A stretch of DNA of 64,000 nucleotides, taken from the NCBI RefSeq assembly GCF_001719125.1, contig NZ_CP017006.1, positions 806,001 to 870,000 on the forward strand, given 5' to 3'. The DNA is from Sulfolobus sp. A20 (GTDB lineage Archaea > Thermoproteota > Thermoprotei_A > Sulfolobales > Sulfolobaceae). The notes beneath the pieces are model-generated. The model was not told where the DNA came from and did no database searches. It worked only from the letters and a program-made list of their open reading frames with translations. The translations under genes and the position numbers were made by a program. Shown piece by piece: positions 1,161-59,237 of this stretch. The first letter of the stretch is position 1. Every line of letters starts with the position of its first letter.

Positions 1161-2388
1161 GTCTCATCCCCACGGACATAGATAAAGCCTCTAATGCGGG
1201 TAACTTTTCTCCAGACAAGAATAAAAGTAAAGCTCCTCCTCCAGTGGAAATATGCACCTTGCCGGAATCAATATTAACGTCTTTATCTATAACGCTAATC
1301 ATATGTCCACCCCCTATAATAACGTATCCCTGCCCTTCCAAAGCTGATTTCAAAACAGATTTACTTCCTCCCTTAAATCTTTCATCTTCAATTACTCCCA
1401 TTGGACCTCTTAATACTACTACTTTAGCGTCTTTTATAAACGAGGAATATACTTCACTCGTGGTAGATCCTATATCCTTAATAACTCCAGTAACCTTATT
1501 CGCAGGTTCTTCCATCACGTTACCATTGTTTTCTACCTTATAATCAACCGGTATCTCTATCGGAGCTCCGCTTAGTAATATTTTCCTTGCTCTTGGAACT
1601 AAACTTAATATTCCTAATTTTTCTAAAACCTCAGCATTCTTTTGACCTATACTCATACCCTTGGCTATGGCGAAAAGTTCAGCAACTAATCCACCAGTCA
1701 ATATCCTATCAGCTATTCTCTTCTTAACCAAATTTTCAATTATCCTGATAGTATCATGAACCTTACCTCCACCTAATACAAAAACTTTTGGAGAATCCTC
1801 TGGATTAAAAATCTTAGCTAACGCAGATACTTCCTTCTCCATCACTCTTCCAGCTGCTGATGGTAAAGCTAAAGGAAAGCCTACGATACTAGGCTGACTT
1901 CTGTGAGCTGTAGCAAAAGCGTCATTAACATAAGCATCAAACAATGGAGCTAACCTTTTAACGATAAAACTTCTGATGTGCTGTTGCGGAGGGGCTTCAA
2001 TTAATTCCTCTGACATGAGTCTAACGTTATCTAGCAGTAGAACTTTACCTTTATCCAGTTTCTTTATCTCCTCTCTAGCATGTGGACCAATTACATCTTC
2101 CACAAAAGCTACTTCTTCCCCTAAGTGTTTCGAAAGTAATTTAGCGTGCTGTTCTAAACTAATGAAATCTTTATCACCCGGTCTTCCTTGATGAGAAATT
2201 AAAACTATACTATTTGACTTATCCATTAACTCTTTAATTGTAACTACATGGGCTCTTATTCTAGAGTCGTCTAAAATCTCACCATTCTCCCCTACCGGAG
2301 AATTAATATCTATCCTTAGTAAAATTTTTTTCGAGTGTAAATCTATATCATCTATTGTGGGGACATTAAGATCTCCTATCTTAATCAG
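1141..2388 (-). CDS. pgk: Phosphoglycerate kinase (non-canonical start, probably CUG)
   Basis: About 415 aa when begun at CTG 2388. It transfers phosphate between 1,3-bisphosphoglycerate and ADP. The first in-frame ATG (2226, [12 protein letters not shown]) would remove the first beta strand and the conserved substrate-binding segment [10 protein letters not shown], which is encoded in the same open frame upstream (2229-2376). No ATG, GTG or TTG occurs in frame above 2226 before the preceding gene. A GGGGAT motif lies five bases before CTG 2388 (protein [11 protein letters not shown]...); ATT 2385 and ATA 2379 are alternatives. Family motifs [16 protein letters not shown] and [13 protein letters not shown] are present. 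It overlaps gap. Confidence 0.93.
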
Positions 2389-24949: not shown

Positions 24950-26746
24950 ATTAGTAATACTAAAAAACTTAGGCAGCCAATAGTAGTAGTATTAGGGCAC
25001 GTAGACCATGGCAAAACAACTTTGCTTGACAAAATTAGAGGAACAGCAGTAGTAAAAAAAGAGCCAGGCGAGATGACACAAGAGGTAGGTGCTAGTTTCG
25101 TCCCTAGTTATATAATAGAGAAACTTGCTGAGCCACTTAAGAAAAAAATACCCATTAAGTTGCAAATACCCGGCTTATTATTTATAGATACGCCAGGACA
25201 CGAGTACTTCTCTAATTTAAGAAGAAGAGGCGGAAGCGTTGCGGATATAGCGATATTAGTAGTTGATATAGTAGAAGGTATACAGAAGCAAACAATAGAG
25301 TCTATACAGATACTTAGAGACAGAAAAGTTCCATTTTTAGTAGCTGCAAATAAGATAGATAGAATACCGGGTTGGAAAGCAAACTACGACTTACCTTTTC
25401 TTGAAACTATTGAGCTGCAGAGAGCTGATGTAAAGGCTTATTTAGATAATTTAGTTTACAACTTAGTTTCAAAACTAGGAGAATTAGGCTTTAATGCAGA
25501 CAGATATGACAGAATAAGAGATTTTACTAAAAATATTGCCATAGTACCGTTATCTGCAAAGACAGGTGAAGGAGTAGCTGACTTATTAGCGTTATTAGCT
25601 GGATTAACACAAAGGTATTTAGAGACTAAGTTAAGATTTGCTGAGGGACCAGCTAAGGGCGTTATTCTAGAGGTGAAAGAAGATCCGGGATTAGGACATA
25701 CGATCGATGTTATAATATACGATGGTGTACTCAAGAGAAATGATATAATAGTTTTAGGTGGGATAAACGGTCCTATAATCACAAAAGTAAGAGGTATTTT
25801 TGTACCTAAACCGCTACAAGATATGAAGCTCTCTAAATATGATCTTTATCCTATAGACGAAGTGTACGCTGCAGCAGGGGTAAAAATATCAGCACCAGAA
25901 CTTGATAACGCATTAGCTGGATCATCATTATATGTGGTAGAAAACCAGAATCAAATCGAGGAATATAAGAAACAGATCGAGGAAGAAATAAAAGAGATAA
26001 GGTTTTACAGCAGTGATACTGCAGGCATAGTTGTAAAAGCTGATAGTTTAGGTACGTTAGAAGCTATAATAAGTGCACTGAAACGAGAAGGTATACCAAT
26101 TAGATTAGCAGATATAGGTCCTATAACGAAAAAAGATCTCATAGAAGCTAACATAGTAATGAATCAGGCTAGAGAATACGGAATAATTGCTGCCTTCAGA
26201 GTTAAGACTTTACCCAATATAGAAACTGGTAACGTTAAAATTATCTATAGTGATATAATATATCAGCTGATAGAAGATGTAAAGAAATATATAACTGATG
26301 TTAAGGAATCTGAAAAAAGAAAAACACTCGAGAACTTAATTTTACCCGGTAAGATAAAAATACTTCCCGGTTACGTGTTTAGACGTAGTGATCCAATCAT
26401 TGTGGGAGTTGAAGTTTTAGGTGGGATAATTAAACCTAAATATCCTTTAATTAAAGAAGATGGAAAAAGAATAGGCGAAATTTTACAAATTCAGGATAAC
26501 AAGAAGAGTGTAGATAGAGCATCGAAAGGCATGGAAGTAGCCATATCGATTAAGAGTAATGCGATGATAGGAAGGCAAGTAAATGAAGGGGACATGTTAT
26601 ATACTGATGTCCCGAAAGAGGACTTAGAGATCCTAGTCACACGTTATTCCAGTACTATAACTGATGATATGAAAGAAGTTATCAAAGATTTGATAAGAAT
26701 AAAAAGAGCAGAGGATCCCCTATATGGGTTAGGTTTACAAATTTGA
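24950..26746 (+). CDS. infB: Translation initiation factor aIF5B (IF2-like), probable AUU start
   Basis: 598 aa if begun at ATT 24950. GTPase of subunit joining and initiator tRNA handling. The first in-frame ATG (25022) would delete the P-loop: [20 protein letters not shown] is encoded at 24974-25033. The frame is closed by TGA at 24941-24943 and contains no ATG, GTG or TTG between. AGGTGAT lies five bases before ATT. Other motifs are [22 protein letters not shown] and the C-terminal [20 protein letters not shown]. The 3' end overlaps the convergent ndk by 12 bases. Confidence 0.95.
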
Positions 26747-40527: not shown

Positions 40528-41502
40528 ATGAATCTCAGCCATACTGATAAACTAATTTTAATGGAACTTCAATATAATTTTCCGTTTGACTCTCAGCCAT
40601 TTAAGACTATAGCTGATAAATTTTCGATCAGCGAAGAGGAGCTACTGGAAAGAGTCAAGATTATGGTTGAAAATGGAATAATAAAAAGGGTAGGAATGTA
40701 TGTTAGTTTTAGAGCTAAGGGGATGGATGGAGCATTAATTGGAGCTAATGTACCGTTAGAAAACGTAGAGAAGTTTAGAAAAATTGCGTTAAGTATTAGG
40801 GAACTTACGCATAACTTTGTGAGAAATCATCCTAGGTATAATATATGGTTTGTGTTAAAGGCTGAAAATAGATCTACACTTAACGAGAAAATTAAAGATT
40901 TATTAAGTAAAGTTAATTCTGATGATTATGTAATATTATATTCTAAAAAAACATTAAAATTAAGTGTAAAATACGATATAATAAGAGGTGTTTCTTGGAG
41001 TGAGAATAGCATGAGAACTTTAATTGAAAACGTGCCAACAGCTGATGAACTAGGAGTAAATAAGGAGCTATTGAAGGATCTTTCATATCCCCTTAAGCTT
41101 ACTAACAGACCTTTCAAAGAAATAGGAGAAAAATATAACATGGGAGAAGATGAGATAGTTGACTTAATTAAAGAATTATATGAGAAAAATGTAATTAAAG
41201 ATTATGGAGCTACATTAAATGGGGAAAAGGTAGGAATAATAGAAAACGGTATGGTTTTACTTGATAATGACAATCCAGAAGATGCTTGCAAAAAAGTTGC
41301 TTTAAACGTTAGGGAAGCTACACATGTTGTTCTAAGAGAATCAGATAAAGAGAACTGGAGATTTCTGTGTTATAGTATGATACATGCTACTAACAAGAAT
41401 ATTATTAAAAATGTAGCAAAAGAAATAGTTAAGGAAACTAATTCGAAGAGTTATATGATATTGTTTAGCTTAGAGAATTTAAAGCCTGGTATAGTTATTT
41501 AG
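40528..41502 (+). CDS. Fused siroheme decarboxylase (AhbA-AhbB type), Lrp/AsnC-like
   Basis: 324 aa from ATG 40528. Two similar halves, each an HTH plus AsnC-type domain: residues about 1-155 ([40 protein letters not shown]) and 165-324 ([40 protein letters not shown]). QYNFPxxxxPFxxIA and VKR.G are features of AhbA/AhbB, which decarboxylate siroheme to didecarboxysiroheme on the alternative heme route. A regulatory role cannot be excluded. The 3' end overlaps pheA. Confidence 0.78.
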
Positions 41503-42300
41503 CTTATTGTAAGACCCCTTTATTTTAATTAGTTCAGTTACTTCTTTTAGCTTATTTAAAAACTGACTATCACCAAGCGATCCTTCATACTCTAAGTAGA
41601 AGTAATATTGCCATGGGATAGATTTTAGAGGTCTAGAGTATATCATCGTTATATTTATATTATACTCATAAAATACTTGAAGAACCCTATAAAGAGCTCC
41701 AGGCTTATGAGAAACTGTAAATAGTATCATGGATTTATTACCACTTATTCTCATCTCCTTCGATATCACTATAAACCTAGTATAGTTATTATCAGAACTT
41801 AGTGAATCTGCAAGCACGTTTAAATTGTATAAATTAGCAGCAAAAGGTGAACAAATTGAGGCAGAATTAGAGTCATTAGATGCAAGTAAAGCGGCTTTAG
41901 AAGTACTCTCAACTGGTATATAATCTTTAAATCCTAATGCTTCTAACTTATCCTTGACTTCATTAAAGGCATGAGGATGAGAGTATATCTTTTTAATTTT
42001 ATCTAAATTTTCCGCTTTAGAGGCTAACACTAATTTTATTTTTTTCTCTAATTCACCTATCACGTAGATATTATCATAATTAAATAAGTTATCTAATGTT
42101 TCATTTACTGGACCTTCTAAACTATTTTCTATTGGGACTACGCCTATTTTGTCATTACTTTGGCTAATTTTTTTAAAGATGTATGAAACTGATTGCTCAC
42201 TTATTAACTCTGCTTTTATTAGATTGGCAACTACACTCGCTGCCTCATGTGAAAAACTGCCTAATGGACCTAAATAATAAATTCCATTTGGATCTACCAA
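41479..42300 (-). CDS. pheA: Prephenate dehydratase with ACT domain
   Basis: 273 aa from TTG 42300, preceded by GAGGAG. Makes phenylpyruvate for phenylalanine synthesis. N-terminal [16 protein letters not shown], catalytic-type segment [20 protein letters not shown], then the regulatory ACT domain beginning [20 protein letters not shown] with the ESRP-like motif changed to [10 protein letters not shown]. Convergent with the siroheme decarboxylase gene (24-base overlap). Confidence 0.93.
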
Positions 42301-42327
42301 TATTATTCTCCTCGACCATTAAATAAA

Positions 42328-46705: not shown

Positions 46706-47251
46706 ATGATCGAGAAGGAAATTAAAATTGCGATTGAATTCCCTCCTCTTAATCAGTTAATGAAGCATCTATCTAAAGATTATAGCTTCTTAGGTATAGA
46801 AACACAAGAAGATATCTATTTTAACTTTATATATAGAAACTTTAAAATTACTGATGAAGCAGTCAGACTAAGAAAAATTAATGATAAAATCGAGTTAACT
46901 TATAAGGGACCTAAAATATCTTCGAGCATAAAAGCGCGTGAAGAAATAACAGTTAGGTTAGATAGTATTAATAATATAGTAGAATTCTTAAACAAATTGG
47001 GCTTATATCCAGTTATGACTGTAAAGAAAATTAGATATAACTATTCGGATGGGTCGTTCATAGTATCTTTAGATTATGTAGAAGAATTAGGCGAATTTGT
47101 GGAAATAGAGGCGAAAAACGAGGCTTTAGATGAGAGCAAAATACAGAACTATATATCCGAATTTATCAGAAAATATAACATAAAAGGAAAACCAACTACA
47201 AAATCTTACTTAGAATTGTTAATTGATAAGCATGAAAGTAATAAGACCTAG
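46706..47251 (+). CDS. CYTH-domain protein (CyaB-like)
   Basis: 181 aa. It opens with the EKEIKI signature of the CYTH tunnel fold and keeps the alternating charged strands [28 protein letters not shown] and [18 protein letters not shown]. The family includes class IV adenylate cyclases, thiamine triphosphatases and inorganic triphosphatases; a triphosphate substrate is likely. Confidence 0.85.
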
Positions 47252-48068
47252 AATAGCAATTTTAACCGATTTCGGAGTAGGAGATAATTATAACGGAGTA
47301 ATGGAAGGAGTAATAAAAAAGATAAATCCAGAAGTCGAGATCATATATATATCTGGCAACGTAAAAAGTTTCAGCATTTTTTCTGGAGCATATCTTCTAT
47401 ACACTTCTTACAATTATTTTCCGAAAAATACAATATTTTTAGTAGTAGTAGATCCTGGAGTTGGAACTGAAAGAAAACCTATTATTATTAAAACAAAGAA
47501 CTATATTTTCGTAGGACCCGATAACGGGGTCATGTATCCAGCTGCGATTAATGATGGAATAACTAAAATCATTCATATTACTAACAAGAAACTTTATCTG
47601 ACTTCTAAAATATCAAATACATTTCACGGCAGAGATATCTTCTCGCCCGTTGCAGCATTCATTTCAACAAACATAAGTATTGAAATATTTGGAAACGAAA
47701 TTAAATCTGATCAAATACAAAGAATGGATTTTAGCTATCAAATACGAGATAACAAAATTTGCGGAACTATACTGTATATAGATCACTTTGGAAATATTGC
47801 AACTAGTATACCCGGTGAGTTACTACTACAACACGCTAATCAAGGCCAGAAAATACTTACTTACGTGAAAGGGAAACAATACACTCCTAAGTTAGTCAAG
47901 TCGTTTGGTTATGGAGAAGAAGGAGAATTATTAATTTATTCTAATGGGTACTTCTTCACTGAGATAGGCATTAATAAAGGAAGTGCCATAGATAAAATGC
48001 AAGTGAAAGAAGGTGATGAAATCTGCTTAGAGGCCTATACCCAGGTAGATTCCAGCCATTCCATTTAG
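47232..48068 (+). CDS. SAM hydroxide adenosyltransferase (DUF62 family)
   Basis: 278 aa from ATG 47232 ([15 protein letters not shown]); it overlaps the CYTH gene by 20 bases. Family motifs: [57 protein letters not shown] and [12 protein letters not shown]. Members hydrolyse S-adenosylmethionine to adenosine and methionine and are related to fluorinase/chlorinase. The 3' end overlaps nadM by 46 bases in another frame. Confidence 0.9.
48011..48017 (+). promoter_or_regulatory. Shine-Dalgarno site before the nadM CTG start
   Basis: AGGTGAT inside the SAM-hydrolase gene, exactly five bases upstream of CTG 48023. The nadM frame is closed by TGA at 48017-48019, leaving only AAT and CTG before the conserved [10 protein letters not shown] region. 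Confidence 0.65.
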
Positions 48069-48544
48069 GACACTTAAGTGTAGTTAAATGGGGATTAGAA
48101 AAAGTAGATGAACTAATAATATTAGTGGGTAGCTCACAAGAAAGTCACACATTAGCTAATCCATTTACTGCTGGAGAAAGGATAGAAATGATACGAGATT
48201 CTTTAAGAGAATATGGTGTAGACTTGTCTAGAATATTTATAATACCAGTACCTGATATTCTTATGAATAGTGTATGGGCCCATCATGTTAGTGTTTATAC
48301 TCCTAAGTTTGAGATAGTATTCGCTAGAAATCCATTAGTAGTTAGAATCTTTAAAGAGGCAGGCTATCGAATTGAAATTCCTCCCTCATTTAATAGGGAA
48401 AAATATAACTCAACGTACATAAGAAGGCTTATAATACAAAACGTGAATAGTTGGTCTGAATTAGTACCTAAGTCAGTTTATACTTATATACTGAAGATTA
48501 AAGGGGACGAAAGATTAAGAGAAATTGTAGGTACAGATAAATAG
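48023..48544 (+). CDS. nadM: Nicotinamide-nucleotide adenylyltransferase, probable CUG start
   Basis: 173 aa if begun at CTG 48023 ([20 protein letters not shown]). It makes NAD from NMN and ATP. The HxGH nucleotidyltransferase motif FHLGH is encoded at 48059-48073, upstream of the first canonical in-frame start (GTG near 48125), which would leave an inactive protein. C-terminal NSTYIRRLI corresponds to the family's ISSTxIR motif. Overlap with the SAM-hydrolase gene suggests coupled translation. Confidence 0.92.
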
Positions 48545-57127: not shown

Positions 57128-57641
57128 GTTTAGTCTCCTTTTCTATCTCTTCCTCTATCTGCCTTATTTTCTGCTCTAAAAATGTTTTTATTTTATCTGA
57201 ATCATAATAGGATAATTGTGATCCACACTTTGGGCATTTGAACTCATTTTCAAAAGCTTCTTCAAAGGAATATCTTGCATTGTCTTGTGGACAAATAAAG
57301 AATGTGTTGTTTCGTTCGTACTCTAATCTTATCCTTAATTTATCTAGTATTAATCTCTTCCTACTAAGCAAAATTTCATTTATTTGTTCTATATTCGGTT
57401 TCCAGTAATATATATACCATCCACTATCTTTATCTCTGGTTTTTCTATAGCTTACAAACCCTTGTTCCTCTAAGAGATTTAACTTCTTCCTAACATCATT
57501 TACTTTAATATTTAACGTATTAGCTATTTCTTCATCAGTCATTTCAGTTCCCTTACGTAATAATACCTCAAGAACGTCTACTATATCATCACCGAGTAAA
57601 CTTTTGGCTAAATTTGTAAATAATTCCTCAACATTAACCAA
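57105..57641 (-). CDS. tfe: Transcription initiation factor TFE alpha
   Basis: 178 aa. N-terminal winged helix ([40 protein letters not shown]), zinc ribbon [20 protein letters not shown]...CPKCGSQL, C-terminal coiled coil. Stimulates open-complex formation. Confidence 0.94.
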
Positions 57642-58173
57642 TTTTTGTCACCTTTTTACCTGCCCTCTGTGGTAATATCTTTAATTTAGCGTCTCTAAAT
57701 TCCATATATAGTTCTCGTCCCTTATAAATTCTATCTAGAAAAATAGCTAACGCTGAAACTTCGGAATGTGGCTGGTTTCCTACCGCTATGTTATAGTGTG
57801 AGTTATGATAATACCAACCTTCTACTTTTTCTGATCCTACAACTATCAATAGCGGGAATTTTAACTCATTAATATCAAAATTTATTAGATTAATTCCATA
57901 CATAGTTAGGTGAACTACGCTTCCATACCCCTTACTTTTCCAGTCTTTAACTACTTCTTTTCCACTATTTACTTCTTTTATTATGAAGTAAGAACTTCCA
58001 CCCCAAGTATCTAGAACCTTTTGAATCGAATCTATTAATTTTTTATCGTTCCCTTCAATAAAAATACCTTTAGCTCCAAATGCTCTTGCAACTAAAGCGA
58101 CATGTGTAGTTATCCTCTTATCTCTCTCTGGTCTATGTCTTAACCTAAGGATATAAATTTCTTTTAAGTCAAT
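57634..58173 (-). CDS. trm56: tRNA (cytidine-56) 2'-O-methyltransferase, probable AUU start
   Basis: About 179 aa if begun at ATT 58173 ([20 protein letters not shown]). SPOUT enzyme methylating C56. The first canonical in-frame start is ATG 57903 ([10 protein letters not shown]), which would lose the first half, including [20 protein letters not shown]. The frame upstream is closed by TAG without any ATG, GTG or TTG. ATT 58173 overlaps the hflX stop region, suggesting coupling, but no Shine-Dalgarno motif is visible. Later segments: [37 protein letters not shown]. Confidence 0.88.
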
Positions 58174-59237
58174 TCCGTTATTAACTGATATACTCTATCC
58201 CTTAGTAAATCAATGTTTACTCTCTTTAAAGCTGATACTGGTATAGTGTCGTAGATTGGAGAGTAAAGTTCATTTGCTTTATTCTTTACTAATTCTATCT
58301 TTTGATCTAGATCTCCATCAAGCTTATCGATTTTATTTAACACAACTATGATAGGTTTACCTGACACTCCTATTTCTCTTAATATTTGAAAAGAGGAGGT
58401 CAAAGTTTCGATTATTAACTCTTTATTAAGTGTAGAGTCTAATAATAGTAATAATGCATCAGAATACTTTGCCTCAGAGAGAGTTACGAAGAAGGAGTCT
58501 ATTACTTGTGGAGGAATTCCTCTGATAAAGCCTACAGTGTCAACTAACATTATTTTCTTATCCTTTAAAGATATTGAGTACCTTTTCGGAGCCATTGTTG
58601 TAAACAATTTACTATCGACTTTCTGCGATAAGCTTGTAAGGGTATTAAATAATGATGTTTTGCCCGAATTAGTGTACCCTACAATTGCAATTGTGGGCGT
58701 ATACTCTGCTCTCTTATTAGCTTCAATACTCTTTTCCTTGAATTTTTTAATATTTTCTAATTCTTTACTTAATTTGTTAATTTTTCTTCTATAGAGTTTT
58801 ATGAGTGACTCAAATCCATATCCGCCAGAGCCTAGAAGTCCTTGTTGTTCACCTAACTTCAATTTAGTATATGCCTCCTTTATTATAGGCAATTCGTATT
58901 TTAACCTAGCTAATTCAATCTGCATCTTAGCCTCCTTAGAGCCAGCGTGAAGGGCAAAAATTTCTAATAATAATAATACTTTATCTATTATCTCTTTTTG
59001 TTTGAGTTCTCTTCTTAGATTTATGAAGTGTCTTGGTTTTAAAATATCGAATATTATTATCGCATCTATCAGATCATTCTCTTCAATTTTTCTCAATTTA
59101 TTCATTTGTATATAAAACTTAGGGTTAGGAGATTTTGGAAGTGGATAAATTTCTAATACTTTATATTCTGCACCTTCTGCTAAAGCAATTGCTTCTTCCT
59201 TAAAGTGGTCTGAAACGAAAAGTATAGCTTTTTTCAC
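58164..59237 (-). CDS. hflX: GTPase HflX
   Basis: 357 aa. Glycine-rich hinge LGSGGYGFESLIKLYRRKIN with coiled coil, then the G domain: G1 VGYTNSGKTSLF, G3 DTVGFIRGIPP, G4 LNKID. Ribosome-associated GTPase; the S. solfataricus homologue has been structurally studied. Overlaps the mbf1 end by four bases. Confidence 0.95.
   Translation of the reverse strand: MKKAILFVSDHFKEEAIALAEGAEYKVLEIYPLPKSPNPKFYIQMNKLRKIEENDLIDAIIIFDILKPRHFINLRRELKQKEIIDKVLLLLEIFALHAGSKEAKMQIELARLKYELPIIKEAYTKLKLGEQQGLLGSGGYGFESLIKLYRRKINKLSKELENIKKFKEKSIEANKRAEYTPTIAIVGYTNSGKTSLFNTLTSLSQKVDSKLFTTMAPKRYSISLKDKKIMLVDTVGFIRGIPPQVIDSFFVTLSEAKYSDALLLLLDSTLNKELIIETLTSSFQILREIGVSGKPIIVVLNKIDKLDGDLDQKIELVKNKANELYSPIYDTIPVSALKRVNIDLLRDRVYQLITELT

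Follow-up and report, generated by a model that had tools for sequence, protein, structure and literature searches.

In Escherichia coli, infC begins at AUU (AUC in Streptomyces) and is autoregulated by IF3 (PMC5472188). Streptomyces sigR starts at GTC, a codon conserved throughout the genus, and is repressed by IF3, with experimental proof (PMC5472188). In S. solfataricus, aIF1 has been reported to favor discrimination against non-canonical starts (PMC8211752, PMC6237735). Non-canonical starts are a known kind of signal, and some of the genes concerned may already be on record. Our search of the open-access literature, where older papers are thinly represented, turned up no description of a Sulfolobus gene starting at CUG or AUU, though single cases may be known already, and none of family-wide conserved non-canonical starts at archaeal core genes.

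The window analyzed here comprises 64,000 nucleotides (bases 806001 to 870000) of the Saccharolobus (Sulfolobus) sp. A20 genome (2,688,317 bp, one contig). An earlier note had proposed that nadM within this window starts at CUG, shortly after AGGTGAT and inside the upstream gene. The nadM reading frame (Table 1) scores 264.2 bits against TIGR01527 (curated cutoff, 181.2) over model positions 1 to 166 of 167, and in the alignment with MJ0541 (PDB 1f9a) residue 1 of that protein pairs with residue 2 of the predicted product, for which the codon following CTG stands. A GRFQPFHxGH motif lies in frame with CTG at residues 8 to 17. Compared with archaeal NadM (TIGR01527; MJ0541, PDB 1f9a), the A20 protein is alike in being a full-length member with HxGH, and the gene differs in its start codon only. 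Positions 48010 to 48034 read AAGGTGATGA AAT CTG CTT AGA GGC (the whole stretch being AAGGTGATGAAATCTGCTTAGAGGC), and the 16S tail GGCTGGATCACCTCA, which is complementary to AGGTGAT, is present in the same genome. Six bases separate the end of GGTGA from CTG (GGTGA-N6-CTG). Between the closing TGA and the conserved core of NadM there is no ATG, GTG or TTG, only AAT, CTG, CTT, AGA and GGC; the earlier note was right that this is the only room for a start and that HxGH precedes every canonical in-frame codon, the first of which is GTG at 48125. Its placement of the start within the upstream gene, which encodes a member of the SAM hydroxide adenosyltransferase (SAM-HAT) family, also stands: the two genes overlap by 46 nt, with the SAM-HAT stop ending at 48068 and the nadM stop codon at 48542 to 48544.

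Table 1. Features of the nadM locus and other predicted near-cognate starts (window positions, or own-genome locus and position where a locus label is given)
Feature	Position	Strand	Basis or remark
SAM-HAT gene, upstream and overlapping	47223..48068	+	PF01887/PF20257; reads ...GDE-I-C-L-E over the nadM start
Shine-Dalgarno GGTGAT	48012..48017	+	AGGTGAT from 48011; complementary to 16S 3' tail ...ATCACCTCA
In-frame TGA closing the nadM frame upstream	48017..48019	+	Sequence; TGA 2-3 codons upstream in 28/30 genomes
nadM start codon CTG (predicted)	48023..48025	+	Column conservation, Shine-Dalgarno spacing, C bias
nadM CDS, 173 aa plus stop	48023..48544	+	TIGR01527 264 bits, PF01467, PDB 1f9a
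HxGH motif (HLGH) of nucleotidyltransferase	48062..48073	+	5' of every in-frame ATG/GTG/TTG
First canonical in-frame codon, GTG	48125..48127	+	Initiation there removes the active-site motif
pgk start CTG (apparent)	2386..2388	-	GGGGA-N6-CTG; supporting case
infB (aIF5B) start ATT (apparent)	24950..24952	+	GGTGA-N6-ATT; supporting case
fen1 (FEN-1) start AUC (apparent)	L249:7965-7967	+	Orthologs L262-L290
TBP (TATA-binding protein) start AUC (apparent)	L370:11868-11870	+	PF00352; orthologs L386-L415
aTrm56 start ATA (tentative)	58189..58191	-	Gene 57634-58194 (-)

NadM was recovered from 30 of 31 Sulfolobaceae genomes, and the start column is NTG in all 30 (CTG in 19, TTG in 6 and ATG in 5). 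This constancy places the nadM CTG beyond chance; genomes within one family are non-independent samples. The overlap with SAM-HAT is 46 nt in 27 of the 30, and GGTGA is kept at the same place in most relatives. CTG is found in five of ten genera (6 of 7 genomes in the window genus, 6/6 in g6, 2/2 in g7, 4/4 in g11, and also g2), and on a four-protein tree of 29 genomes the start codon changes at least six times. The exception in the window genus is G016, with ATG in this column, and the ATG of some relatives shows that CUG is not indispensable for nadM. The comparison of close relatives that the earlier note had called for bears out its proposal of a CUG start behind AGGTGAT. Initiation of nadM at CUG is strongly supported, because no other codon is usable, ATG and TTG exchange with CTG in the same column, the Shine-Dalgarno motif is conserved at a fixed spacing, and C is in excess at a site that is synonymous in the upstream gene.

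Other origins of the NadM N terminus fit these data poorly. GTG at 48125 is the first codon acceptable to a standard gene finder and would yield NadM without its N terminus, but it would cost the protein an active-site motif that every relative retains, even where the start column holds ATG, and a family search of the A20 genome returned no second NadM; we regard such a start as extremely unlikely. Alternatively, the N terminus could arise by frameshifting, with ribosomes entering the nadM frame either from ATG at 48016 (ATG AAA TCT GCT TAG, in another frame) or out of the SAM-HAT (SAM-hydrolase) gene. The out-of-frame ATG does adjoin the Shine-Dalgarno motif, but it is missing in relatives that keep CTG, such as L013 (ggtgaggatatctg), while the distance from GGTGA to CTG suits a start and ATG or TTG stands in place of CTG in other genomes, which leaves frameshifting very improbable. 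Sequence error, raised in the earlier note, or gene decay has a negligible chance of explaining the codon, given CTG at nadM in 18 other genomes, a reported A20 coverage of 150x PacBio plus 700x Illumina (PMC5127849), and an intact 173-aa frame with a full-length TIGR01527 match. The GTG start, the frameshift from ATG at 48016 and sequence error were all rejected.

The overlap also bears on which NTG is retained. Read in the SAM-HAT frame, the first base of the nadM start falls at a synonymous third position, in a codon for Ile or Val, and the following TG opens a Cys codon. C occupies this position in 19 of 30 genomes (0.63), ranking first for C among the 28 SAM-HAT alignment columns with Ile or Val in at least 24 genomes; the next-highest column reaches 0.32 and the pooled rest 0.12. 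A is found in 5 of 30 genomes, compared to 0.55 in the pooled columns. Counted by genus, C is present in 5 of 10 (p=0.004). ATA and GTA would be synonymous in the SAM-HAT frame and would give AUG, so AUG appears to be disfavored in most lineages; a weak codon is retained at nadM where a synonymous AUG is available, and CUG looks to be selected over it. The Cys codon that supplies TG is unchanged in 30 of 30 genomes, TG also being under constraint from the SAM-HAT reading frame. The aligned residue differs in two PDB homologues (Arg in PH0463, Glu in MJ1651), and a Cys fixed in Sulfolobaceae alongside other residues in these homologues is what would be expected if the nadM start holds TG. The C excess could have another cause, such as RNA structure; folding at the nadM start is unremarkable (z = -1.6), and an Rfam search for an RNA element there gave no match of note.

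In Sulfolobaceae, nadM is not alone. The earlier note had described CUG starts as very rare and the spacing at nadM as identical to that at infB and pgk. The spacing is indeed shared (GGTGA-N6-ATT at infB, GGGGA-N6-CTG at pgk), with a weaker Shine-Dalgarno motif at pgk, and the claim of rarity needs correcting for this family: pgk also appears to start at CUG, as does a nusA-like gene in two relatives, and AUU, AUA, AUC and ACG are apparent starts elsewhere. The pgk start column (30 genomes, L133-L162) holds CTG in 16, ATG in 8, TTG in 4 and TTG GTG in two, apparently with no overlapping gene; CTG is carried by 6 of 7 genomes of the window genus, 6/6 of g6, 3/3 of g10, and g4. This case is less clean in part of the window genus, where a GTG or TTG precedes the column by four codons. 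At infB (orthologs L163-L191), ATT at GGTGA-N6 occurs in all seven window-genus genomes and two of g7, and others have ATG or TTG at an equal distance from GGTGA. The infB product, aIF5B, is itself an initiation factor, and its AUU start parallels bacterial infC.

Across 29 genomes, fen1 has AUA in 25, AUC in 3 and AUU in 1, and in none ATG, GTG or TTG. The near-cognate codon always stands right before a conserved Gly-Val, in most cases at GGTGA-N6, and AUA often shares bases with the upstream stop (ATAG); the TIGR03674 match to this frame begins at model position 1. The alignment of Sulfolobus FEN-1 (PDB 2izo, chain A) begins only at residue 7 of the proposed frame, consistent with an N terminus shortened by annotation. 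TBP has ATC, ATA or ATT with an in-frame stop no more than three codons upstream in 20 genomes. Judged by these alignments, pgk (CUG), infB (AUU), fen1 (AUA/AUC) and TBP (AUH) have apparent unusual starts, each of which is conserved across species. The nusA-like gene has CTG at GAGGTGA-N6 in G015 and G017 and TTG or GTG in others, and gatB has ACG in G015 with TTG and ATG in two relatives, all at N6. For aTrm56, the first ATG, GTG or TTG is at codon 97 and a conserved ATA or ATT follows AAGGGA-TAG/TAA in most relatives; overlap with its upstream gene clouds the inference. A candidate ATT start at truD is accompanied by GTG two codons later in relatives of the genus. In the window, pheA (prephenate dehydratase, 41479-42318, minus strand) has no Shine-Dalgarno motif and is possibly leaderless; several of its orthologs have no clear start, two having ATT ATT GAT and others no NTG near the core. 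Four further own-genome candidates at GGTGA-N6, all on the minus strand (L255:13673, L385:6803, L384:18018 and L374:9531), comprise two ABC transporter permeases (ACG, ATT), a CbiQ-type protein (ATC) and an unknown 112-aa ORF (ACG). Of 68 gene-like ORFs surveyed in the window, most carry an ordinary NTG at the position best suited to a start, so the method does not of itself produce CTG in start columns.

A homology-free survey points the same way. We sampled the window together with 40 spaced 20-kb stretches of the A20 genome, 864 kb in all or roughly one-third of its length, taking ORFs that span 80 codons or more and are preceded by GGTGA, and counting CTG, ATA, ATT, ATC and ACG as near-cognate. 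At spacings of 5 to 7, 64 ORFs had NTG. Among ORFs with no nearby NTG, a near-cognate codon stood at spacing 6 in 9 of 13, compared to 8 of 74 in a same-register control that pools spacings 9 to 24 and so counts the same ORFs at several offsets (Fisher p = 2e-5). The second 400 kb, added after the first result, gave 4/6 versus 4/33 on its own (p=0.01), and in 790 kb from relatives a near-cognate codon was found at GGTGA+6 in 20 of 23, nadM orthologs making up most of them. With nine near-cognate and 64 canonical starts, the share would be about one in eight of the strong Shine-Dalgarno class, from small numbers and with relatives confirming only part of the nine.

An alternative hypothesis accepts CUG as the nadM start but gives its C no regulatory meaning: the base would be kept by chance or by the SAM-HAT gene, and Sulfolobaceae would merely tolerate near-cognates after a strong Shine-Dalgarno motif. 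The variety of near-cognate codons at GGTGA-N6 speaks for this, as does the survival of relatives with ATG and TTG at nadM. In contrast, C is strongly in excess at nadM where A is both synonymous and commoner, pgk retains CTG in over half of the genomes, apparently with no gene overlapping its start, and canonical codons are absent from the fen1 start column throughout. We consider the neutral explanation a real possibility, if somewhat short of an even chance; the C excess is suggestive, and not proof, of regulation of the infC or sigR type.

We favor, with a probability of about 0.92 for the explanation as a whole, translation of nadM from CUG at 48023, placed by the Shine-Dalgarno motif, probably decoded by Met-tRNA and coupled to SAM-HAT, and most likely retained as a weak start. 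The position of this codon, its conservation, its exchange with other codons, the C bias and the absence of alternatives are established computationally. AGGUGAU would pair with the 16S tail and set CUG, six bases past GGUGA, in the P site, where the ordinary initiator Met-tRNA (CAU) probably takes it with a first-position mismatch, giving a product that would begin Met-Leu-Arg-Gly-Leu-Tyr-Pro-Gly-Arg. Three CAU tRNAs resemble the initiator, elongator Met and Ile2 species; the tRNA genes examined held one initiator, with anticodon CAU, and no extra one, and a second initiator tRNA reading CUG was rejected. Translational coupling of nadM and SAM-HAT is probable because nadM starts 46 nt before the end of SAM-HAT. 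CUG is most likely kept over AUG in most lineages since a weaker start fits NadM dosage or regulation, and the resulting low or regulated translation is perhaps read by aIF1. This factor is a natural candidate reader of near-cognate starts, given its reported discrimination against them and the example set by IF3 at infC and sigR. The same rule, a strong Shine-Dalgarno motif, N6 and a near-cognate codon, appears to apply at other Sulfolobaceae genes. Only tentatively, and with more doubt than confidence, we speculate that the whole family uses an enlarged start set (CUG, AUA, AUC, AUU and ACG besides AUG, GUG and UUG) at GGUGA-N6 in roughly one-eighth of strong Shine-Dalgarno genes, kept across genera at nadM, pgk, infB, fen1 and tbp and selected over AUG as low-output starts set by aIF1.

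Gene finders count on ATG, GTG and TTG, so Sulfolobaceae core proteins are likely to be shortened or shifted in annotation. From the sequence comparisons, nadM, almost certainly with a CUG start, appears to be one of several household genes of the family with unusual, easily misannotated starts. Provided that CUG and AUH starts are under selection, the family would offer a natural and genetically tractable set of weak starts. To our knowledge, IF3 is absent from Archaea, and such a set would let one ask how an archaeal ribosome without IF3 picks its starts and whether aIF1 regulates through them. Like infC of E. coli, nadM is a housekeeping gene whose non-canonical start is conserved, and Sulfolobaceae infB appears likewise to use AUU; unlike infC, the nadM start is CUG, and regulation of nadM is suggested by analogy. 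As with sigR of Streptomyces, the rare start is conserved, belongs to one of two coupled genes (at nadM, probably coupled) and is misannotated in databases, but the codon, the domain of life and the factor differ, and the start is proven experimentally for sigR and predicted from sequence for nadM.
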